From the IMG/VR virus record IMGVR_UViG_3300046665_000262, positions 1-21,980 of that record: a DNA stretch of 21,980 bases; one strand, given 5' to 3'. The DNA comes from a virus. The notes below the pieces were generated by a model. The model saw only the letters and a program-made list of their open reading frames with translations. It had not been told where the DNA came from and made no database searches. Shown here in pieces: positions 1,014-21,166 of the stretch (position 1 is its first letter; every line of letters begins with the position of its first letter). Made by a program: the position numbers and the translations under genes.

Positions 1014-1679
1014 ATGGACAGCCTCTTCTGGGCCGCTCTGCTCGGCATCGTGTGGATCGACCTTCTCCTCTCCGGCGACAACGCAGTCGTCATCGCCCTC
1101 GTCAGCCGGCAGCTGCCGGAAAACCAGCAGAAGTGGGGCATCATCGGCGGCACTGCTGCTGCGATCGGCCTGCGCGTTGTCATGTCGTTCTTCGCCGCCT
1201 TCCTCCTGGGCGTGCCCGCGCTGAGCATCATCGGCGGACTCTTCCTGCTCTGGGTCGCAGCCAAGCTGCTCATGGGCGAGGACGACGAAGCCGGCCCGGC
1301 CAAGAAGGTCATCAGCCTGGGTGCTGCGATCTGGACCATCGCCGTCGCAGACGCGAGCATGAGCCTCGACAACGTCATGGCCATCGCTGCGCTCTCGCAC
1401 GGTTCGACCATGCTGATGGCTCTCGGCGTGCTCCTGTCGATCCCGCTCGTGATCGCCGGCAGCGCAATCATCTCGGCCGTGATCGGTCGCTTCCCGATCC
1501 TCACCTGGGCCGGCGCGGCTCTGCTGGGCTGGGTTGCTGGCGGCATCATCGCTGCTGATCCCTGGGCTCAACCGCATATGGGCCACTACTCGACGTCGTT
1601 CGCCGGCCTGGTGCTGGTGCTGTTCGTCGGAGTGTTCGTGCGCTGGAAGCGGGCTGTGGTCGCAGATGCGGCTGCCTGA
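1014..1679 (+). CDS. TerC/YjbE family integral membrane protein
   Basis: A 221-residue polytopic membrane protein with about seven hydrophobic helices. The YjbE-type TerC signature is clear: LLLSGDNAVVIAL in the first helix (about residues 17-29), with Asp and Asn expected in the metal path, and DASMSLDNVMAIAA in the middle (about 115-128). Members of this family export manganese or support metallation of secreted proteins; others form TerB-TerC complexes in tellurite/stress systems. The start at 1014 has CGGAG upstream. It follows the TerB-like gene and overlaps a 32-residue membrane peptide. TerB plus TerC in a phage is uncommon and may act in membrane-linked stress control or exclusion of other phages; that is inference. 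Confidence 0.85.
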   Translation: MDSLFWAALLGIVWIDLLLSGDNAVVIALVSRQLPENQQKWGIIGGTAAAIGLRVVMSFFAAFLLGVPALSIIGGLFLLWVAAKLLMGEDDEAGPAKKVISLGAAIWTIAVADASMSLDNVMAIAALSHGSTMLMALGVLLSIPLVIAGSAIISAVIGRFPILTWAGAALLGWVAGGIIAADPWAQPHMGHYSTSFAGLVLVLFVGVFVRWKRAVVADAAA

Positions 1680-1764
1680 CGCATTCGACCTGAAGCTCGG
1701 CGCTGTCGCTGCGGTGTGGATCATCTGCGCCTACGGCATCGCCCGCTGCATCGCCGGGCACTGA
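1666..1764 (+). CDS. Small single-helix membrane protein overlapping terC
   Basis: A 32-residue reading frame whose ATG lies inside the last codons of the TerC gene (14-base overlap), suggesting translational coupling. It has a short charged N-terminus and one hydrophobic helix (about residues 11-28, containing AVAAVWIICAYGIA) with two Cys. There is no strong ribosome-binding site of its own. It is too short for homology; it could be an accessory subunit of the TerC protein. Support is the overlap, the membrane helix and the hairpin that follows its stop. Confidence 0.5.
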   Translation: MRLPDAFDLKLGAVAAVWIICAYGIARCIAGH

Positions 1765-1773
1765 ACCAAGGCT

Positions 1774-1787
1774 GGGGCTTCGGCCCC
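1774..1787 (+). terminator. UUCG-capped hairpin ending the ter unit
   Basis: GGGGC-TTCG-GCCCC, flanked by partly complementary GGCT and GGCC. It sits 10 bases after the small membrane gene and 35 before the RNA ligase start, and has the same core as the hairpin after nrdJ. Confidence 0.5.
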
Positions 1788-1821
1788 GGCCACCTTCCCC
1801 GAAATCACTGGAGACCTACGC

Positions 1822-3063
1822 ATGATCGACGGCGAAAGAAAACTCGCGACCATCAGACGGATCGCTGACATCAACCCTATCCCCGGCGCCGACGCCATCA
1901 TCCGCCTGACGGTGGACGGCTGGGAGCTGGTGTCCGCCAAGGACAACGGCTTCGCGATCGGTGACCTGATCGTTTACTTGGAGATCGACTCGTTCCTGCC
2001 CGTCATCCCGGCGTTCGAGTTCCTGCGTTCTCGCTGCTACAAGTCGACCGCCCACCTGGGCGAAGGCTTCCGCCTGAAGACCATCAAGCTGCGCGGCCAG
2101 ATCTCGCAGGGTCTGGCGATGCCACTGTCGGCGCTGTTCCTGACAGACCCGGATACGGGTGTCATGACCGGCTTCAACAACGGCGAGATGCATATCATCA
2201 AGCCGGAAGAAGGCTTCGACGTCACCGAGATCCTCGGCGTCAAGAAGTGGGAATCCGCTCCCGAGCGCGAGGGCAACAGCTTCGGCCCGACCAAGGCTCG
2301 CGGTTCCTTCCCCTCGTTCCTGCGCAAGACCGACCAGGATCGCATCCAGAACTGCTTCGGCAAGATCAAGACCTGGGCGACCGTGTCGATCCAGAACGAA
2401 ATCCTGGAGCTGCCGGAAGACGCGGCGATCCCGGATGGCGTCTACAAGATGGCCGATGGCCGCTACGTCCGGAAGACGGTCGTGGCGCTGAACGACAACG
2501 AGATGCTGGAGCGCGGCCAGTTCGAGGCCACGCTGAAGCTCGATGGCTCGTCGATGACCATCTACAACTACGATGGCCAGTACGGCGTCTGCTCGCGCAA
2601 CCTCGAACTGAAGCGTGATCCCGAGAACACGTTCTGGAAGACCGCGATCAACACCCGCATCCTGCCGGCGCTGGTCCATGGTGGCTACAACGTCGCTGTC
2701 CAGGGCGAGCTGATGGGGCCGAACATCCAGGGCAACCGCGAGAACCTGGCCGTCCACACGTTCTTCATCTTCGACGTGTTCGACATCGATCGCCAGGCCT
2801 ACATGGCTCCGGCCGATCGACTCGAGTTTCTGGTGAAGCTCGCCAACGACGGCCTGATCGACCTGGAGCACTTCAACCGGGTGCCGAACCTGGGCGTCGT
2901 GTCGCTCTCGGACTATCCGACCGTGAAGGACTTCCTCGCGGCGGCGAACCGTCCGTCGATCTCGCACAAGGTCGCTGAAGGCGTCGTCTACAAGTCGATG
3001 ATCGAAGGCGGCCCGACGTTCAAGGCGATCAACGACAACTACCTGCTGGCCGAAGCGGGCTGA
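1822..3063 (+). CDS. RNA ligase, DraRnl/Rnl5-like, with N-terminal OB-like domain
   Basis: A 413-residue ATP-dependent polynucleotide ligase. Nucleotidyltransferase motifs appear in order: motif I KLDGSS (Lys239 is the expected adenylated lysine), SRN at 258-260, motif III GELMG at 295-299, IIIa FFIFDVF at 314-320, motif IV EGVVYK at 386-391 and motif V FKAIN at 400-404. The first about 100 residues resemble the OB-type N-terminal module of the Deinococcus DRB0094 (Rnl5) family, whose ligases seal nicks with a 3'-OH RNA end. The start has GGAG upstream. No polynucleotide kinase is seen nearby, unlike T4-type tRNA repair, so its substrate may already carry 3'-OH and 5'-phosphate ends. The stop overlaps the next ATG (TGATG). 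Confidence 0.88.
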   Translation: MIDGERKLATIRRIADINPIPGADAIIRLTVDGWELVSAKDNGFAIGDLIVYLEIDSFLPVIPAFEFLRSRCYKSTAHLGEGFRLKTIKLRGQISQGLAMPLSALFLTDPDTGVMTGFNNGEMHIIKPEEGFDVTEILGVKKWESAPEREGNSFGPTKARGSFPSFLRKTDQDRIQNCFGKIKTWATVSIQNEILELPEDAAIPDGVYKMADGRYVRKTVVALNDNEMLERGQFEATLKLDGSSMTIYNYDGQYGVCSRNLELKRDPENTFWKTAINTRILPALVHGGYNVAVQGELMGPNIQGNRENLAVHTFFIFDVFDIDRQAYMAPADRLEFLVKLANDGLIDLEHFNRVPNLGVVSLSDYPTVKDFLAAANRPSISHKVAEGVVYKSMIEGGPTFKAINDNYLLAEAG

Positions 3064-3986: not shown

Positions 3987-4004
3987 GTTCGCTTGAATGC
4001 AAAT
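3987..4004 (+). promoter_or_regulatory. Dispersed repeat copy 2
   Basis: GTTCGC-TTGAAT-GCAAAT, an imperfect inverted repeat with the core in gene orientation, 26 bases before the TTG start at 4031. TTGACG at 3977-3982 could be a -35 element, but no good -10 follows. Confidence 0.6.
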
Positions 4005-4030: not shown

Positions 4031-4420
4031 TTGGACGCTATCGCAGCAGAACGTGCCGCGCTCGACTTCATCACGAAGGAGCTGGTGCGACAGAACGAAA
4101 TGTGGGGCCCGGCCAACGAGCGCGTGGACATCTCGAACGGCGAGCTGTTCGAGGCCGGCGTCGGCCAACTCGATGCAGTGTTCGATCGCCGCAACGGTGA
4201 CGAGACTGCCTTCGACGAACCGCCGCAGATCTATCCCGAGAACTGGAGCGGCTTCCGCAGCTACGGCGGAGACTTCGCCAACATCGGAGTCGGCGTCACC
4301 TTCCTCGTCCAGGAGATGAAGAGACTGGCGATGAAGGGAGAAGACCTCACCCGACTGAGCCGCACCGCTGCTCAGCCGTACAACCCGGAGACGGGCCTGC
4401 CCAACACGGTGTCCGCATGA
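4031..4420 (+). CDS. Hypothetical phage protein
   Basis: A 129-residue acidic soluble protein with no recognised family. The TTG at 4031 is preferred because AGGAG lies eight bases upstream; an in-frame ATG at 4010 would lack a ribosome-binding site and sit only five bases after the repeat element. Visible features are a helical start with FITKELVRQNEMWGPAN, a Tyr/Trp-rich middle (YPENWSGFRSYGGDF) and a short helix with VQEMKRLA. Its stop overlaps the start of a small membrane protein (ATGA). It is the first gene after a dispersed repeat, so it may begin a new regulated unit. Confidence 0.7.
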   Translation: MDAIAAERAALDFITKELVRQNEMWGPANERVDISNGELFEAGVGQLDAVFDRRNGDETAFDEPPQIYPENWSGFRSYGGDFANIGVGVTFLVQEMKRLAMKGEDLTRLSRTAAQPYNPETGLPNTVSA

Positions 4421-4536
4421 TCGGCATCTTCCTACTGAACCACGTCCTCGACGCGCTCGGCCTCTGGTACGCCCTGTCCGTCTGCTGGAAGCTCGCGAAG
4501 TTCAAGAAGTACGGGTTCTTCCGCGCTTTTTGGTGA
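4417..4536 (+). CDS. Small single-helix membrane protein, 39 residues
   Basis: The ATG overlaps the stop of the preceding gene (ATGA). One hydrophobic helix spans about residues 2-24 (IGIFLLNHVL to LSVCW), followed by a positively charged tail (KLAKFKKYG) and an aromatic end (FFRAFW), consistent with a cytoplasmic basic side. No function can be assigned. The stop codon lies six bases before the next dispersed repeat. Confidence 0.55.
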   Translation: MIGIFLLNHVLDALGLWYALSVCWKLAKFKKYGFFRAFW

Positions 4537-4542
4537 CCTGCC

Positions 4543-4560
4543 GTTTGTTCAAAAGCAAAC
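4543..4560 (+). promoter_or_regulatory. Dispersed repeat copy 3
   Basis: GTTTGT-TCAAAA-GCAAAC: good half-sites, with a core that fits the TTGAAT consensus poorly on either strand. It stands 52 bases before the TAXI-type gene. Confidence 0.55.
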
Positions 4561-4577
4561 GTTTCGATTTTGGAGGC

Positions 4578-4596
4578 GGGCCCCGTGGTGGGGCTC
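4578..4596 (+). promoter_or_regulatory. Leader hairpin before the TAXI-type gene
   Basis: GGGCCCC (4578-4584) pairs with GGGGCTC (4590-4596, one G-U) around the loop GTGGT. It ends just upstream of the AAAGGAGA ribosome-binding site (4600-4607) and could affect leader stability or translation. Confidence 0.4.
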
Positions 4597-4612
4597 GCAA
4601 AAGGAGAACTGC

Positions 4613-5494
4613 ATGAAGAAGCTGTTTTTGTTGATCGCCGCAGCGACCCTCGGTCTCTCGGCTGCCTCCTCGGCGCAGGCCGCCGAGAAGTTCCGTCTCT
4701 GCACCGGCAACGCCAAGCTGAACTACTTTGCCGCTGGCCAGCACCTGAAGCGCCACGCCGGCAACGTCGATGTCGTCGAGACCAAGGGCTCGCTGGACAA
4801 TCTCGACAAGGTCACGGCCGGTGAGTGCGACGGCGCGTTCGTCCAGAACGATGCCCTGCTCGTCTACGCTCAGCGCAACGCGAAGGCCATCTCCGCCCTG
4901 CAGCGTGCGGGCGTGCTCTACCAGGAGCAGGCCAACTTGCTCTGCAACCGCAAGGCCTACACGTCGTCCCGCATGGTCGACCTGAATGCCAACTTCACGG
5001 TTGCGATCGGCCCCGAAGGCTCCGGCGCCAACACCACCTGGGCCGCCTTCGTTGCCGCCGACAAGGCTCGCTACGGCAAAGTCCGCACGTCCGACCTGAC
5101 CGGCACCCTCGCGCTCAGCGCCGTCAACGACGGTTCGGAAGTGCAGTGCGCCTTGATCATCACCGCGCTCAACGCCTCGATGCTCAAGAACGAAGCTCCG
5201 AAGTATGCGAGCGGCCTGGTGCTGGTCGAGACCGACGACCGCGACATGACGAAGAACGCCAAGGATACCCGCGGCAACCCGGTCTACACCTACGGTGAGA
5301 TCCCGTCCGGCACCTACAAGGGCATCCAGCCCTCCGGCATGTTCGGTTCGAAGTCGGTAGCCACCATCCAGGTCGATGCCGTGTTCGTCGCCAACCGTGA
5401 CTGGGTCGCCGCTCACACCAGCGACTTCGAGAAGATCGTCGACGGCTTCGCCAACGCCAAGCCCGACATCGAGAAGCTGGTCCAGCCGAAGTAA
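4613..5494 (+). CDS. Exported TAXI-type (TRAP) solute-binding protein
   Basis: A 293-residue protein with a clear signal peptide: MKKLF, a hydrophobic stretch, and a likely cut after AQA at residue 23. The mature part resembles periplasmic binding proteins of the TAXI family of TRAP transporters: an early LCTGNAKLNYF strand-loop, an IGPEGSGANTTW loop (about residues 125-136) typical of ligand-binding segments, and a C-terminal DFEKIVDGF helix. No TRAP membrane subunits are near, so it cannot form a complete transporter on its own. It may bind a solute for a host carrier, coat or bind an envelope target, or have been repurposed as a moron. AAAGGAGA supports the start. Family assignment is moderate; role in a phage is unknown. 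Confidence 0.65.
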   Translation: MKKLFLLIAAATLGLSAASSAQAAEKFRLCTGNAKLNYFAAGQHLKRHAGNVDVVETKGSLDNLDKVTAGECDGAFVQNDALLVYAQRNAKAISALQRAGVLYQEQANLLCNRKAYTSSRMVDLNANFTVAIGPEGSGANTTWAAFVAADKARYGKVRTSDLTGTLALSAVNDGSEVQCALIITALNASMLKNEAPKYASGLVLVETDDRDMTKNAKDTRGNPVYTYGEIPSGTYKGIQPSGMFGSKSVATIQVDAVFVANRDWVAAHTSDFEKIVDGFANAKPDIEKLVQPK

Positions 5495-5502
5495 CGGACC
5501 AG

Positions 5503-5535
5503 GACGCGCCCCGGACATCACCTCTGGGGCGCGTC
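5503..5535 (+). terminator. Strong GC hairpin after the TAXI-type gene
   Basis: GACGCGCCCC (5503-5512) pairs perfectly with GGGGCGCGTC (5526-5535), a 10-bp stem with a 13-base loop starting eight bases after the stop codon. There is no T-tract. It likely acts as a terminator or 3' stabiliser. Confidence 0.6.
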
Positions 5536-5545
5536 ACCGCCGCAC

Positions 5546-5986
5546 ATGACCCAGCATATCGATGTCACGCGGCTCGTGAAGTTCATGATGATGACCACGT
5601 CATCGAACGACAACGAAGCCTTGATCGCGATGCGCAAGGCCAACGCGGTGCTCGGGGAAGCGAAGAAGAATTGGCAGGACATCCTGCTCACGCCGTTCGC
5701 GAGAAGACCTGACCCACCGCCACGACCTGAACCGCAGCCGCAGCAAGAACCGCGTCGGAAGCCTGACCCGAAGCCGGCATCCGATCCGAAGACCGACCTA
5801 ATCAACGCGATGTTCGAGACCCTGCTGAAGGAAGTCTCTCCCGAGAGCAATTTCCGAAGCTTTGTCCTGAGCGTCCACGTCCAGTGGCTCAAACGCAACC
5901 GTCTCACCGACAAGCAGTACCGAGCCATCCGCAAAGCGTACCTCAACTACAAGCCCGAGGCCGAGAACGAAGATGACCGAAGCTGA
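5546..5986 (+). CDS. Hypothetical protein with Pro-rich linker
   Basis: A 146-residue protein in three parts: an N-terminal helical module (about residues 18-47) with SSNDNEALIAMRKANAVL followed by WQDIL, a pattern seen in alphaproteobacterial phage proteins; a Pro/Arg/Gln-rich linker (about 52-80); and a C-terminal helical module with LTDKQYRAIRKAYLNY (about 118-133). It looks like two short interaction domains joined by a flexible linker. The start has no strong ribosome-binding site. The stop overlaps the next small gene by 14 bases. No function is assigned. Confidence 0.65.
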   Translation: MTQHIDVTRLVKFMMMTTSSNDNEALIAMRKANAVLGEAKKNWQDILLTPFARRPDPPPRPEPQPQQEPRRKPDPKPASDPKTDLINAMFETLLKEVSPESNFRSFVLSVHVQWLKRNRLTDKQYRAIRKAYLNYKPEAENEDDRS

Positions 5987-6134
5987 AGAGAAGAGATTGA
6001 ACGACCGCATCAAGGAGCTGCTGGAGCACAACAACACGCAGCTGATGGAGAACCGTGCTCAGCGGGCGATCATCAAGACCCAGAAGATCCAGATCATGTG
6101 GCTGCTGAGCCAAATCCCGGGAGTCCAGCCGTGA
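5973..6134 (+). CDS. Small coiled-coil protein, 53 residues
   Basis: The ATG lies within the end of the preceding gene. The protein is almost entirely charged helix (TEAEEKRLNDRIKELLEHN, then QRAIIKTQKIQIMWLL), likely coiled coil, and ends with a short Pro-containing tail. Its stop overlaps the next GTG start (GTGA). No known family. Confidence 0.55.
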   Translation: MTEAEEKRLNDRIKELLEHNNTQLMENRAQRAIIKTQKIQIMWLLSQIPGVQP

Positions 6135-6298
6135 GGTACATCGTTTTCGGACTCTTCATGGGCACCGCCCTGGGGCTGGCCATCGCCGCGGTCGCGGTCG
6201 GCAACAGACAGGACACCTGCCAGGCCCGCCTCACCTCTGCTCACGTTTCGGTCTGCCTCGATGGCAAGGCCGACAAGGTCAAGGATTTGTTTCGATGA
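6131..6298 (+). CDS. Small membrane-anchored protein, 55 residues
   Basis: Starts at GTG in a GTGA overlap, with GGGAG upstream. One N-terminal helix (about residues 2-24, YIVFGLFMGTALGLAIAAVAV) is followed by a polar tail with two Cys (DTC and VCLD) that would lie in the periplasm if anchored N-in. Its stop overlaps the start of another small membrane protein. No family recognised. Confidence 0.55.
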   Translation: MRYIVFGLFMGTALGLAIAAVAVGNRQDTCQARLTSAHVSVCLDGKADKVKDLFR

Positions 6299-6432
6299 AG
6301 ACTGTGTTGATCGTTGTGTGCGGCCTGCTGGTCGGCACCGCCATCGCCGGGGCGATCACCGGCAAGCAGCTGTCGCTCTCGACGTCGTTCTCGTTCTGCC
6401 TGCACGCCGACAAGGAGTGCCATAATGACTGA
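6295..6432 (+). CDS. Small membrane-anchored or secreted protein, 45 residues
   Basis: The ATG overlaps the previous stop (ATGA). It begins MKTVLIVVCGLLVGTAIAGA, a hydrophobic helix or signal sequence, then a short polar tail with Cys near the end. It overlaps the next gene by eight bases. With the preceding gene it forms a pair of tiny envelope proteins of unknown role; nothing marks them as holin or spanin. Confidence 0.5.
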   Translation: MKTVLIVVCGLLVGTAIAGAITGKQLSLSTSFSFCLHADKECHND

Positions 6433-9486: not shown

Positions 9487-9533
9487 CCTTCACACGGGAG
9501 AGGTCCAAGGTTCGATCCCTTGTGCGCCCACCA
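9487..9533 (+). other. attP core: 3' end of tRNA-Val(CAC)
   Basis: From 9489 the sequence folds as the last 45 bases of a tRNA: anticodon loop TTCACAC (anticodon CAC at 9491-9493), 3' anticodon strand GGGAG (9496-9500), variable loop AGGTC, T-arm CAAGG/TTCGATC/CCTTG (9506-9522), acceptor TGCGCCC (9523-9529), discriminator A, and CCA at 9531-9533. The 5' half is missing, since 9484-9488 (GTGCC) cannot pair with GGGAG (CTCCC expected). This is the usual phage-borne tRNA segment that restores the host gene after integration. It also lies within inverted repeats CCCGTG/CACGGG (9481-9498) and TTGGACC/GGTCCAA (9476-9508), plausible core-type sites. Confidence 0.8.
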
Positions 9534-9571
9534 TTCTAACCCCTTGAAATAACAAACGGATTTGGAAATCT

Positions 9572-9585
9572 CGTGGTATACCACG
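9572..9585. promoter_or_regulatory. Perfect 14-bp palindrome between attP core and right arm sites
   Basis: CGTGGTATACCACG is fully self-complementary. Its place between core and right arm sites suggests binding by a dimeric regulator, excisionase or host bending factor, or control of the 9694 gene. Confidence 0.5.
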
Positions 9586-9628
9586 GGGGTCCGAATGCCG
9601 TCCTATACCAAGCACAGAACGTGAACCG

Positions 9629-9657
9629 ATGTGCAAAAGTGTGCAATTGGTGTGCAA
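9629..9657 (+). repeat. Putative integrase arm-type sites (right, three copies)
   Basis: ATGTGCAA (9629-9636), GTGTGCAA (9639-9646) and GTGTGCAA (9650-9657), spaced by 10 and 11 bp so that all face the same side of the helix. Same orientation and sequence as the left pair. Confidence 0.65.
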
Positions 9658-11788: not shown

Positions 11789-12445
11789 ATGCCTGCACCT
11801 AGAGTCTACAACATCCACCACAAGGACGCGCCCCGTGGGAACATCTACATCGGGCGCGGTTCCTATTGCGGCAACCCGTTCGTCATCGGAGAAGACGGCG
11901 ACCGGGACCACGTCTGCAATCGATTCGAATGCGAGGTGCTGCCGACGCTGGACGTGTCGGGCTACGCCGGCAAGGATCTGACCTGCTACTGTGCTCCGCA
12001 CCGCTGCCACGGCGACTCGATCCTGCTGAAGGCGAACTTCCGGGTGCTCGTGTTCGGCGGCCGGGACTATGCCAACAGAACCGCTCTGTATCGCGCTCTC
12101 GACGCCGTCCATGCGCGCAGGAAGATCACCTGCATCGTTGAGGGGGAAGCGTCGGGAGCCGACAGGCTGGGCCGGCAATGGGCTGAGGATAGGAATGTCG
12201 AGGTCGACCCATACCCCGCCGACTGGGACAACATCGATCAGCCTGGAGCGGTCGTCAGGAAGAACAAGCGCGGCAAGCTCTACGATGCGCTCGCCGGCCA
12301 TGTTCGCAATGAGCAGATGCTGCGGGAGGGGCGCCCGCAGTTCGCTATCGGATGTACAGGAGGAACAGGCACGGCAGACATGGCCAAGCGATGCCTGGCC
12401 TACGGGATCATTCCAGCCACCGTCGAAAGCGCACTTCTTCCTTGA
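11789..12445 (+). CDS. DUF4326-SLOG (DUF2493/YspA-like) fusion protein
   Basis: A 218-residue two-domain protein. Residues 17-80 match DUF4326: IYIGRG-x-x-x-GNPF (20-31) and CYCAPHRCHGD (66-76), a Cys/His cluster. Residues 84-215 match the YspA/DUF2493 branch of the SLOG Rossmann superfamily: RVLVFGGRDY (85-94), VEGEASGADRLGRQWA (117-132), YPADW (142-146) and GGTGTADM (191-198). SLOG domains are thought to bind nucleotide-derived ligands and are common in defence and signalling systems; DUF4326 function is unknown. The fusion suggests that both halves act on the same nucleotide-type ligand. Its 3' end overlaps the oppositely oriented gene by 38 bases. Confidence 0.8.
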   Translation: MPAPRVYNIHHKDAPRGNIYIGRGSYCGNPFVIGEDGDRDHVCNRFECEVLPTLDVSGYAGKDLTCYCAPHRCHGDSILLKANFRVLVFGGRDYANRTALYRALDAVHARRKITCIVEGEASGADRLGRQWAEDRNVEVDPYPADWDNIDQPGAVVRKNKRGKLYDALAGHVRNEQMLREGRPQFAIGCTGGTGTADMAKRCLAYGIIPATVESALLP

Positions 12446-13004
12446 CCAGCTGAGGGATGATCACGGCTACGCCGAAGTCGATGACTCCATTCCAAAGCTC
12501 GCTGATGGTCGGCCAGGAGAAATGGAACAATGGCTCGACGGCGAAGAAGTTGGTGATGATGGTGGCGATGCCCGCGGCGATCAGCGCATAGTTCCGGCCG
12601 AATGCAAGGGCGACAGCGCAGACCCCGAGAGTCATGATGACGTCGATCCGCGCATCGACCCTAAGAAAGTCCATCGCGAAGGCGATGGGTGCGGAGATGC
12701 CGAGAGCCGCACAGCCGAACAGCCAGTACGGAATTTTCCACTCGTTGGCAGGAGGATCAGTTTCCGATGCAACGGCTTCCGGGCCACCTGATGCGTCGAG
12801 ACTAACCTCATCCAGGTCGATCGCGCTGCTGCCCGAGAACCAGGCTGGTGAGCCACCTCGGTCGAGGCAGTCCCACATCTGATCAATGCCTGTGGTCAGG
12901 CGTGAGTAGCTGCGGGAGATCAGCAGGCTCTCGTCATCCTCGGACTGGCCGACGAACGTGTCGTTCAGTTTGGAGACCTCGTAGTTCCGATAGATGGTTG
13001 TCAT
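12408..13004 (-). CDS. Paralog-domain protein fused to KdpD/DUF4118-like membrane helices
   Basis: A 198-residue protein starting at ATG 13004 (GAGG six bases upstream) rather than GTG 13016. Residues 4-70 form a soluble domain clearly related to the product of the gene upstream: YRNYEVS, an SEDDES segment, TGIDQMWDCLDRG and PAWF...IDLDEV align with it. A linker (71-88) leads to about four membrane helices (91-187), including AFGRNYALIAAGIATIITNFF, which resembles the DUF4118 membrane sensor region of KdpD kinases. No kinase follows. It is in a leftward two-gene unit inside rightward DNA, so perhaps a lysogen-expressed membrane exclusion or sensing module. Function is unknown. Confidence 0.7.
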   Translation of the reverse strand: MTTIYRNYEVSKLNDTFVGQSEDDESLLISRSYSRLTTGIDQMWDCLDRGGSPAWFSGSSAIDLDEVSLDASGGPEAVASETDPPANEWKIPYWLFGCAALGISAPIAFAMDFLRVDARIDVIMTLGVCAVALAFGRNYALIAAGIATIITNFFAVEPLFHFSWPTISELWNGVIDFGVAVIIPQLVKEEVRFRRWLE

Positions 13005-13012
13005 GGCACACC

Positions 13013-13312
13013 TCACGCGGCGGCCTGGATCGGCGCGAAGACGGGCGCGATCGGGAGAGAGCTGACGGCTTGGTCGACGACAAGCATGTCAGTGCTGGCG
13101 ACATCGATGTCGATGATCTCGTCGGGAAGCGAGAGCCAGGCGGGCATTGAGATCTTACCTTCGAGGGCGTTCCAGAGTGTGTCGATCGCCCTGGTCACGC
13201 GGAGCATGTTCTTGGATCTGAGCTGGAAGGATTCCCCATCGGCGGAGACGGCAGTGAAGGCGCTCCCGTCGTGGCTAACGACGTATGAGCGGTAGTCGAA
13301 GGACGCTTTCAT
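13013..13312 (-). CDS. Soluble paralog of the neighbouring membrane protein's N-terminal domain
   Basis: A 99-residue protein; its stop is eight bases before the start of the downstream gene, so they form an operon. Residues about 6-75 align with the N-terminus of that protein: YRSYVVS, SADGESF, RVTRAIDTLWNALEG, MPAWLSLPDEIIDIDV. It ends in a hydrophobic Pro/Ala-rich tail and has no membrane helix. The family is not one I recognise. Repeated use of the domain, once alone and once tethered, suggests hetero-oligomers. Confidence 0.7.
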   Translation of the reverse strand: MKASFDYRSYVVSHDGSAFTAVSADGESFQLRSKNMLRVTRAIDTLWNALEGKISMPAWLSLPDEIIDIDVASTDMLVVDQAVSSLPIAPVFAPIQAAA

Positions 13313-13373
13313 TTTCTAATTTCTCATTGCGGCCTTACCGCAGGCCGTTCCCATAGCCAGAACTGCTAATGCC

Positions 13374-13393
13374 ATTTGCATCACAATGCAAGC
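13374..13393 (-). promoter_or_regulatory. Dispersed repeat variant with 8-bp centre
   Basis: Read leftward: GCTTGC-ATTGTGAT-GCAAAT. Same half-sites as the family but with an 8-bp rather than 6-bp centre. It lies 61 bases before the leftward gene start at 13312. Confidence 0.4.
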
Positions 13394-13532
13394 GAGTGAA
13401 GCCTCCGCAGAACTACGGTGGCGCCATTAACTCAGGAGGAACTTTTGCCCGGTTTTTCCCGAGTTTCCCGTTAATTCCTGAAGATCTGTTCATTTCGCAG
13501 AAACCATACCGACCCCCTAGACATCACGTTGG

Positions 13533-13550
13533 ATTTGCCTTAATGCAAAT
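13533..13550 (+). promoter_or_regulatory. Dispersed repeat copy 4
   Basis: ATTTGC-CTTAAT-GCAAAT: perfect half-site symmetry, 22 bases before the ATG at 13573, with another GCAAAT at 13557-13562. Confidence 0.6.
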
Positions 13551-13572: not shown

Positions 13573-14196
13573 ATGTCAGCCGGTTCCAAATCGCAGGTTC
13601 TGCCAGTATTTCCCGGTGTTCTTGCCCGCCTGGCTGCCCTCGGATTGGTCAGAGCCGCTGACATATTGTTAACCCGAGTTGCAAACTCCGGTGTAGCTAC
13701 CTGGATGAAGCAGCGCACCGAGGAGCTGGAACCCGCGGACCTCCGGCAGGCGCGCTGGGACCGCTACTTCCTCAACGTCGCGCAGGCCGTCTCGGCCGCC
13801 TCGAAAGACCCGAGCACCAAGGTCGGCGCCGTCATCGTGCGCCCGGACATGACCATGGCGTCCTTCGGCTACAACGGCTTTCCCCGCGGCATAGCTGACA
13901 CGGACGAGCGGCTGAACAACCGCGAGGTCAAGTACGACCTGGTCGTTCATGGCGAGATCAACGCCATCCTGACCGCCCGCGAGCCGCTGCACGGCTACAC
14001 GCTCTACACTTGGCCTTTCATCACCTGCAAGCGCTGCTCTCTCCATGTCATCCAGGCTGGGATCAAGCGCGTCGTCGCCCCGGAGCTGCCAGACCATCTG
14101 AAGGAGCGCTGGGCCGCCTCGGTGCGGGACGCTGGGCAGCTCTACGACGAGGCCGGCGTTGACTGGGCTCTGATCAGCACCGCGGAGGGGCAATGA
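13573..14196 (+). CDS. dCMP deaminase family protein
   Basis: A 207-residue zinc cytidine/deoxycytidylate deaminase. The family core starts near residue 61 (RWDRYFLNVAQAVSAASKDPSTKVGAVI). Zinc and catalytic residues are His126-Gly-Glu128 (HGEINAI) and Cys152-x-x-Cys155 (TCKRC). It converts dCMP to dUMP, feeding ThyA. The ATG at 13573 has GGAG five bases upstream, but gives a 45-residue N-terminal extension, partly hydrophobic, that is unusual for the family; an in-frame ATG at 13705 would give the normal length but lacks a ribosome-binding site. An inverted repeat GAGTT-GCA-AACTC lies between them (13676-13688). The enzyme call is firm, the start is not. Confidence 0.85.
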   Translation: MSAGSKSQVLPVFPGVLARLAALGLVRAADILLTRVANSGVATWMKQRTEELEPADLRQARWDRYFLNVAQAVSAASKDPSTKVGAVIVRPDMTMASFGYNGFPRGIADTDERLNNREVKYDLVVHGEINAILTAREPLHGYTLYTWPFITCKRCSLHVIQAGIKRVVAPELPDHLKERWAASVRDAGQLYDEAGVDWALISTAEGQ

Positions 14197-14992: not shown

Positions 14993-15027
14993 CCCCATCA
15001 GCATCGACGGGATACGTGTGTCCTGTC

Positions 15028-15045
15028 GTTTGCTTGAATGCAAAT
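15028..15045 (+). promoter_or_regulatory. Dispersed repeat copy 5 (consensus)
   Basis: GTTTGC-TTGAAT-GCAAAT, the best rightward copy, ending eight bases before the methyltransferase ATG and starting 35 after the previous stop codon. Confidence 0.65.
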
Positions 15046-15053
15046 GTGAGCAG

Positions 15054-15644
15054 ATGAACGATAACTTCGCACTCCATCCCTTGAAGCGCAGACACTACGG
15101 CCTCGCCAAGATCGATCCGCCGTGGGCGTTCAAGACCTACTCGGCCAAGGGCAAAGGCAAGTCCGCCGAGCAGCACTACGACACGATGACTCTCGACGAC
15201 ATCTTCAAGATGCCGATCGAGGAGCTGGCGCATCGCGACGGCATGTGGGTTTGGCTCTACGCCACCGCGCCGATGTACGACCAGGCTCGCGCCTGCTTCG
15301 ACAGATGGAACGTCAAGTACGTAACCCAGGGCGTCTGGGTGAAGATGACCAAGGACGGCGAGAAGCCGACCTTCGGCACCGGCTACGCGCTGCGCAACTG
15401 CCATGAGCCATTCCTGATCGGGAAGGTCGGCAAGCCGAAGATCCACGCCCGCAACATCCGCTCCGCAATCCTTTCCCCGCGCCGCGAGCACTCGCGCAAG
15501 CCCGACGAGGGCTACGTCGAGGCCGAGAAGATGGCCGGCCCGTATCCGATGGCCGACATCTTCAGCCGCGAGCAGCGTCCCGGCTGGGACTCCTGGGGCA
15601 ACGAAACCTCGAAGTTCAACCCCCAGCAGGAGATCGCAGCATGA
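15054..15644 (+). CDS. MT-A70 family adenine-N6 methyltransferase
   Basis: A 196-residue AdoMet-dependent methyltransferase. It has the catalytic DPPW tetrad (residues 21-24) after a short strand (YGLAKI), then HYDTMTLDDI (about 41-50), GMWVWLYATAPM (about 63-74) as a strand-turn, and FGTGYALRNCHEPFLIG (about 107-123). It should methylate adenine in phage DNA (or RNA), often as protection from restriction or to mimic host methylation. The ATG at 15054 is preferred; an upstream TTG-type start would read through the repeat element. No matching endonuclease is adjacent. The stop overlaps the next ATG. Confidence 0.9.
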   Translation: MNDNFALHPLKRRHYGLAKIDPPWAFKTYSAKGKGKSAEQHYDTMTLDDIFKMPIEELAHRDGMWVWLYATAPMYDQARACFDRWNVKYVTQGVWVKMTKDGEKPTFGTGYALRNCHEPFLIGKVGKPKIHARNIRSAILSPRREHSRKPDEGYVEAEKMAGPYPMADIFSREQRPGWDSWGNETSKFNPQQEIAA

Positions 15645-15934
15645 CCCAGAACATCACCGCAAAGATCACGAACATCAGCGTCGTTCGCGCCGGCCCGATC
15701 GGCTTCGCAGCCACGAAGATCGAGCGCGAGGGCCAGAAGTCCGAACTCAAATTCAGAATGGTCTTCGGGGGCACCGTCCTCGCAGACATGGGTGAAGAGG
15801 CAGCGCGCTTCTTCATCTCCCGGGTGCAGGAGGCATTCGCCATCGAGAACGATGACGAGTGGACCCGCGCACCCACCTACGCCGCGGTCGAAGCCGACCG
15901 TCAACGGATCGCCGCACGCAACGCCGCGGTCTGA
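15641..15934 (+). CDS. Hypothetical protein, 97 residues
   Basis: ATGA overlap with the methyltransferase. An N-terminal strand-rich half (ITNISVVRAGPIGFAATKI, then LKFRMVFGGTVLADM) is followed by a helix (EEAARFFISRVQEAFA) and a disordered Ala/Arg tail. Typical size of small early phage proteins. No family recognised; co-translation with MT-A70 hints at a partner role. Confidence 0.6.
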   Translation: MTQNITAKITNISVVRAGPIGFAATKIEREGQKSELKFRMVFGGTVLADMGEEAARFFISRVQEAFAIENDDEWTRAPTYAAVEADRQRIAARNAAV

Positions 15935-20653: not shown

Positions 20654-20671
20654 GTTTCAATTCAAGCAAAT
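20654..20671 (-). promoter_or_regulatory. Dispersed repeat copy 6 (leftward)
   Basis: Read leftward: ATTTGC-TTGAAT-TGAAAC. Core exact, right half-site degenerate. It touches the stop codon of the upstream gene and lies 16 bases before the dNMP kinase start. Confidence 0.55.
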
Positions 20672-21148: not shown

Positions 21149-21166
21149 TTTTGCATTCAAGCAAAC
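21149..21166 (-). promoter_or_regulatory. Dispersed repeat copy 7 (leftward, near consensus)
   Basis: Read leftward: GTTTGC-TTGAAT-GCAAAA, flowing directly into the GGAGA ribosome-binding site, 10 bases before the ATG and only two bases after the upstream stop codon. Confidence 0.65.

Follow-up and report, generated by a model that had tools for sequence, protein, structure and literature searches.

A predicted core operon of Bradyrhizobium phages related to BDU-MI-1 pairs a small soluble protein with a paralogue carrying a KdpD-type membrane region

In a 21,980-bp virus record, the whole of which we analysed and refer to as the window, two adjacent genes on the minus strand encode a soluble protein, A, and a membrane protein, B, that have an N-terminal domain in common. 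Judged from sequence comparison, the two proteins represent a new family, arranged in a new way around a membrane domain that is already known, and their genes make up a core syntenic operon of the ~120 kb Bradyrhizobium phages related to BDU-MI-1, a temperate lineage. We tentatively propose that the two proteins assemble together in a Rex-like module of a soluble and a 4-pass protein at the inner membrane, in which A would be the short-lived controller and which would affect infection; this reading is closely rivalled by a role as a regulatory sensor and by one early in the lytic cycle.

Genes A and B and the domain they share

Both ORFs lie where the preliminary description had placed a leftward pair, at 12408-13312. 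Gene A (13013..13312, minus strand) encodes a soluble protein of 99 aa, homologous to B, with a beta-beta-beta-alpha domain and a disordered tail. Gene B (12408..13004, minus strand) encodes a protein of 198 aa composed of an N-terminal domain as in A, a linker and a four-helix membrane region; its length is counted from the conserved MTTIYRNY start, and the 202-aa version from the GTG start given in the ORF list is not conserved. The A stop codon and the B start are separated by 8 nt in the window, by 8-10 nt in most loci, and in one locus (L014) the genes overlap by 4 nt, as is usual where translation is coupled. Both neighbours are transcribed in the opposite direction, as had been described: a SLOG/DUF4326 gene (11789-12445, plus strand) is convergent with B, the two 3' ends overlapping by ~38 bp, and a dCMP deaminase gene (13705-14196, plus strand) is divergent from A across a 392-bp gap. 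The GC content of the pair is ordinary, and the pair sits near one end of prophage records, with the integrase ~3 kb away in the window and ~1 kb away in BDU-MI-1. Adjoining the integrase at window positions 9490-9657 is a spurious ORF (peptide GAQGIEPWTSPV) that could be the trace of a tRNA 3' end serving as attachment site; no complete tRNA was detected with ARAGORN.

The ~65-residue N-terminal domain is common to A and B at a level far above chance. Aligned by Smith-Waterman, the two proteins scored 98, and 20,000 shuffles gave a mean of 24.4, a standard deviation of 4.3 and a maximum of 57; phmmer scored the pair at 5e-11. The proposed common ancestry of the two proteins is thereby upheld, and the motifs quoted for the domain (YRxYxVS, ID-x-x-W, PAW and ID-x-D) were all found in the pair. 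By sequence alignment and AF2, the domain spans residues 7-76 of A (13085..13294, minus strand) and residues 5-70 of B (12795..12992, minus strand). AF2 predicted the same fold for it in both proteins. The model of A had a mean pLDDT of 75, with about 83-91 over residues 1-70 and <50 for residues 77-99, and showed a beta-beta-beta-alpha unit at residues 4-50 (pLDDT about 85-90) that is followed by a short second segment and, from residue 77 on, by a disordered tail.

Profile and structure searches agree with the earlier suggestion that the domain may be new: no library names it, and it had no confident match in Pfam, PHROGs, NCBIfam, PADLOC or the PDB. A itself matched no Pfam family at E 10 or better, neither A nor B matched PADLOC, and the PHROGs matches of A (E 0.012 or worse, different from member to member) were judged to be at chance level. 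Foldseek against the PDB returned nothing significant for A (best E 1.2) or for B (best E 1.9). The top VIA match, MmoD (Z 5.0, with the rest below 3.7), was taken as a common small arrangement, and the VIA matches to AP2-like, integrase arm-binding and HicB-type folds were weak (Z 2.9, 2.6 and 2.4). The best BFVD matches (E 0.02) were ~50-residue phage proteins alike in shape, which are uncharacterised and so give A no function. Neither an HTH nor another DNA-binding family was found in the shared domain with Pfam or PHROGs. The domain is acidic in every member, with a net charge of -2 to -8, which speaks against a plain DNA-binding role.

A ends in Ala-Ala-Ala (13016..13024, minus strand), a possible degron. 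The terminus [AV][AV]A was present in 12/12 A proteins and 0/13 B proteins, and the 20 residues before it vary among the A proteins; as a background, 3 of 151 BDU-MI-1 ORFs end in this way, one of them with A's own tail. Since the 12 A proteins are related, their termini do not amount to 12 independent events. In Caulobacter, also an alphaproteobacterium, the C-terminal di-alanine of CdnL is a ClpXP degron (PMC11034885). From this precedent and the conserved terminus, we reasonably infer that the A tail resembles a ClpXP degron and that A is short-lived.

Residues 94-189 of B (12438..12725, minus strand) matched the KdpD-type membrane domain DUF4118 (Pfam PF13493, E 4.4e-12) with 46.2 bits against a gathering score of 28.4, covering positions 1-96 of the 107 in the profile. 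DUF4118 was matched by 12/12 B homologues, and a profile of the B proteins matched 2KSF, a structure of the KdpD membrane domain (E 7e-6). AF2 predicted helices at residues 93-114, 119-135, 137-155 and 167-197 with modest confidence (mean pLDDT 69); confidence was low in the linker, where most members have a conserved SETDPP motif. No kinase domain was found with Pfam in B or its homologues, B ends shortly after helix 4, and the KdpD equivalog scored 17 bits on B against a cut-off of 1123. By these profile matches, B is a member of DUF4118 that lacks a kinase, in keeping with the original picture of one soluble protein and one with DUF4118-like helices.

Distribution and conservation of the pair

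Relatives of A and B were found solely in contigs resembling Bradyrhizobium phage BDU-MI-1 (KY940711), a 121-kb phage with tail-sheath genes. The gene order in BDU-MI-1 is integrase, SLOG gene, B, A and dCMP deaminase, and the tblastn identity to this phage is 31% for B and 39% for A. Both genes are omitted from the annotation of KY940711, which leaves a gap at 40979-42364 between the SLOG gene and the deaminase; the pair lies at about 40.9-42.0 kb. Beyond this lineage, pattern scans of 84,980 species genomes gave no relatives of A or B, and B was not found in plasmids. BDU-MI-1 was the sole match among 50,697 phage records, and a last scan with a wider B alignment added no further relatives.

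All 16 records that were searched whole carry the domain, 15 with both genes and one cut inside A by the contig end. Because these records had been recovered through A or B, reverse tests were made with terminase and deaminase queries. The terminase query yielded an additional record of 127.6 kb, G028, with both genes present. The deaminase query yielded L049, in which the order is kept and B stands as a single membrane gene without A (1199-1879, minus strand); a different ORF, recombinase-like with an HTH, takes A's place (2125-3039, plus strand). The same query yielded G017, in which no copy was found, but this record stops 281 bp upstream of the deaminase, beside the expected start of the pair. 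Gene A is conserved in 18 records, the neighbour genes are unchanged across related phage records, and the pair is present in every related phage record except the divergent L049 and one cut record. As a separate observation, ~10 kb is repeated at both ends of the G028 contig, pointing to an entire genome, circular or tandem, of about 117 kb.

Ka/Ks values of 0.12-0.37 for A and 0.06-0.30 for B indicate that both are real genes under purifying selection. In a tree of the shared domain, A and B fall mostly apart, and the B sequences of BDU-MI-1 and G028 group weakly with A. Presence in all 16 records and G028, constant place, low Ka/Ks and ordinary GC argue that the pair is core and not accessory, and the earlier label of a typical moron is not supported.

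The control region and a phage-wide motif

The 392 bp separating A from the deaminase hold several strongly conserved elements, which bears out the description of the pair as a transcription unit apart from its surroundings, with a regulatory region of its own. Upstream of A is a promoter/operator-like element, CTTGCAT-N4-ATGCAAA-N3-CATTAGCA (13364..13392, minus strand), with one strong copy in the window. Written as the composite CTTGCRT-N4-ATGCAAA-N3-CGTTAGCA, it had its sole strong match there, was again the sole one in BDU-MI-1, and occurred once per genome in the other large genomes checked, with two copies in G028, whose ends repeat. The dyad part, TTGCRTNNNNMTGCAAA, was found upstream of A in 9/11 loci and not once in shuffles, and a TTAGC/ATAGC box lies at about -60 upstream of A in 11/11 loci. 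A tentative reading of the composite element is that a -35/-10 pair encloses an operator.

The dyad TTTGCCTTAATGCAAA (given in the deaminase sense; 13534..13549, no strand assigned), a variant of a phage-wide motif, lies closer to the deaminase and occurs exactly once upstream of A in 11/11 loci, against a shuffled mean of 0; the pattern TTTGCATTANNGCAAA occurs once upstream of A in 11/11 loci, at -225 to -243, and not in shuffles. Between this dyad and the promoter-like element lies a further dyad, TGAA-N6-TTCA (13479..13492, no strand assigned), in 5/11 loci against a shuffled mean of 0.1. Two other candidates were set aside: a CCGTA dyad matched 4 loci and no more, and a small GC hairpin in the A leader (13331..13346, minus strand), present in every member folded, was mostly no stronger than in shuffles (z +0.2 to -2.8) and too weak to claim.

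Half-sites of the pair's promoter region led to an oriented 16-bp motif, YTTGCNYGAATGCAAA. BDU-MI-1 has 34 sites at <=2 mismatches, where three control patterns gave 0, 1 and 0; in this genome, which is 87% coding, 34/34 sites are intergenic, mostly 0-60 nt before a start codon on the same strand. The window has sites at 15029-15044, 21150-21165, 3988-4003, 20655-20670 and 463-478. The motif is present in phages of the group and absent from unrelated contigs that bear a deaminase. BDU-MI-1 also encodes a CI-like HTH protein (15009-15698, minus strand), ~25 kb from the pair and conserved in seven large relatives (L095-L101); about 170-215 nt upstream of this gene, at almost constant positions, are two degenerate copies of the motif. 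The stoperators of mycobacteriophage L5 are repressor sites that are numerous and oriented and lie in promoters and in short gaps between genes (PMC9283540). By analogy, the YTTGCNYGAATGCAAA sites look like the operator/stoperator system of a CI-like repressor, and the pair's promoter region carries related dyads.

This arrangement bears on two roles once open to the pair. Since the phage has a CI-like gene that is itself preceded by the motif, A is unlikely to be the regulator that binds the phage-wide motif. Immunity by repression, one of the functions suggested earlier, is unlikely because the CI-like repressor is encoded about 25 kb away, and the immunity repressor is probably this other gene rather than A or B.

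Possible roles and comparison with known systems

In the tentative mechanism that we favour, the KdpD-type four-helix region of B, without a kinase, would anchor the small domain to the inner membrane on its cytoplasmic side. A, as a free copy of that domain, would bind the copy in B; a ClpXP-type C-terminal tail would keep A short-lived, and A would thereby set the state of B. The output would most likely be Rex-like: in the course of infection the permeability or potential of the membrane would change, which would hold back a competing phage or set the timing of the phage's own cycle. Superinfection exclusion by the pair, as first suggested, is a possible outcome of this mechanism. Several points count against it, among them the lack of a RexA-like match and of repressor linkage described below: A cannot be strictly required, since L049 keeps B alone; exclusion genes usually vary from one related phage to another, and this pair does not; and the operator-like dyads may silence the pair in a lysogen.

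The same evidence can be arranged differently. We think it rather less probable that the pair is a sensor-regulator, in which the DUF4118 helices would sense the membrane, K+ or turgor and B would hold A, or A's partner, until freed A alters phage expression or the choice between lysis and lysogeny. DUF4118 is the membrane part of KdpD, homotypic domains favour capture and release, the A tail suggests a regulated, short-lived protein, the single-copy promoter-like element is tightly conserved and the integrase is close by in both the window and BDU-MI-1; this reading is nevertheless at odds with an acidic domain that has neither an HTH nor a DNA-binding family match, and DUF4118 alone as a sensor is unsupported. 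The dyads that overlie the putative promoter look like the operators presumed for the CI-like protein, with similar half-sites upstream of the CI-like gene, and the pair could equally be shut off in a lysogen. Following induction or infection, it would then act on a host membrane process such as ion balance, secretion, division or host defence, and conservation in all members would suit such an early lytic takeover. We rank this still lower: the pair lies on the strand opposite to the surrounding DNA-metabolism genes, and the dyads have a spacing of 8 against 6 in the phage-wide motif, so that one common regulator need not bind both.

Least probable, and improbable in itself, is a lysogen-expressed moron or simple exclusion of superinfecting phages through B alone, A being a by-product of the duplication. 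L049 does retain B alone, four-helix membrane proteins are common among exclusion factors, and the position near a prophage end would fit, but purifying selection acts on A, every other member has it, and the pair is core with ordinary GC. Hardly more probable is a new kind of two-protein phage membrane switch, in which the KdpD-type region would present the small domain, its unstable soluble twin would serve as antagonist or trigger, and membrane state and proteolysis would together set the infection decision. If true, this would be a minimal example of the membrane region of a sensor kinase turned into a stand-alone switch.

To return to the Rex-like reading, the comparison with known systems begins with KdpD, whose four-helix membrane region is homologous to that of B, as the DUF4118 and 2KSF matches indicate; B differs in lacking the KdpD N-terminal domain and the kinase, and in having an unrelated small domain in front. 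Prophage pairs of a soluble and a 4-pass membrane protein are known exclusion systems: lambda RexAB, Sbash gp30/31, CarolAnn gp44/43, Butters gp30/31 and P. putida RexAB (PMC7542560, PMC12894663). A and B are like them in that two genes of a prophage together encode a soluble and a 4-pass (or membrane) protein, with the helices here predicted, but A, at 99 aa, is paralogous to the N-terminal domain of B, and the pair is core in its lineage rather than variable. Compared by family match, A resembles no RexA-like family, having no Pfam match of any kind and none in PADLOC. The lambda rex genes adjoin the immunity repressor, a linkage that A and B, distant from the CI-like gene, do not have. As a side observation, KY940711 has a gene annotated as an rIIA lysis inhibitor at 4228-6339; the rII functions of T4 counter Rex exclusion. 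By the features tested, A and B are thus not members of the Rex group, and with neither a RexA-like match nor repressor linkage we suggest a possible likeness to Rex in mode of action, and no more than that. Together, these comparisons name an unannotated core operon in phages of Bradyrhizobium, a root-nodule bacterium and agriculturally important symbiont, and, if the proposed module is true, its paralogous soluble and membrane copies would be a new layout among phage membrane modules such as RexAB.
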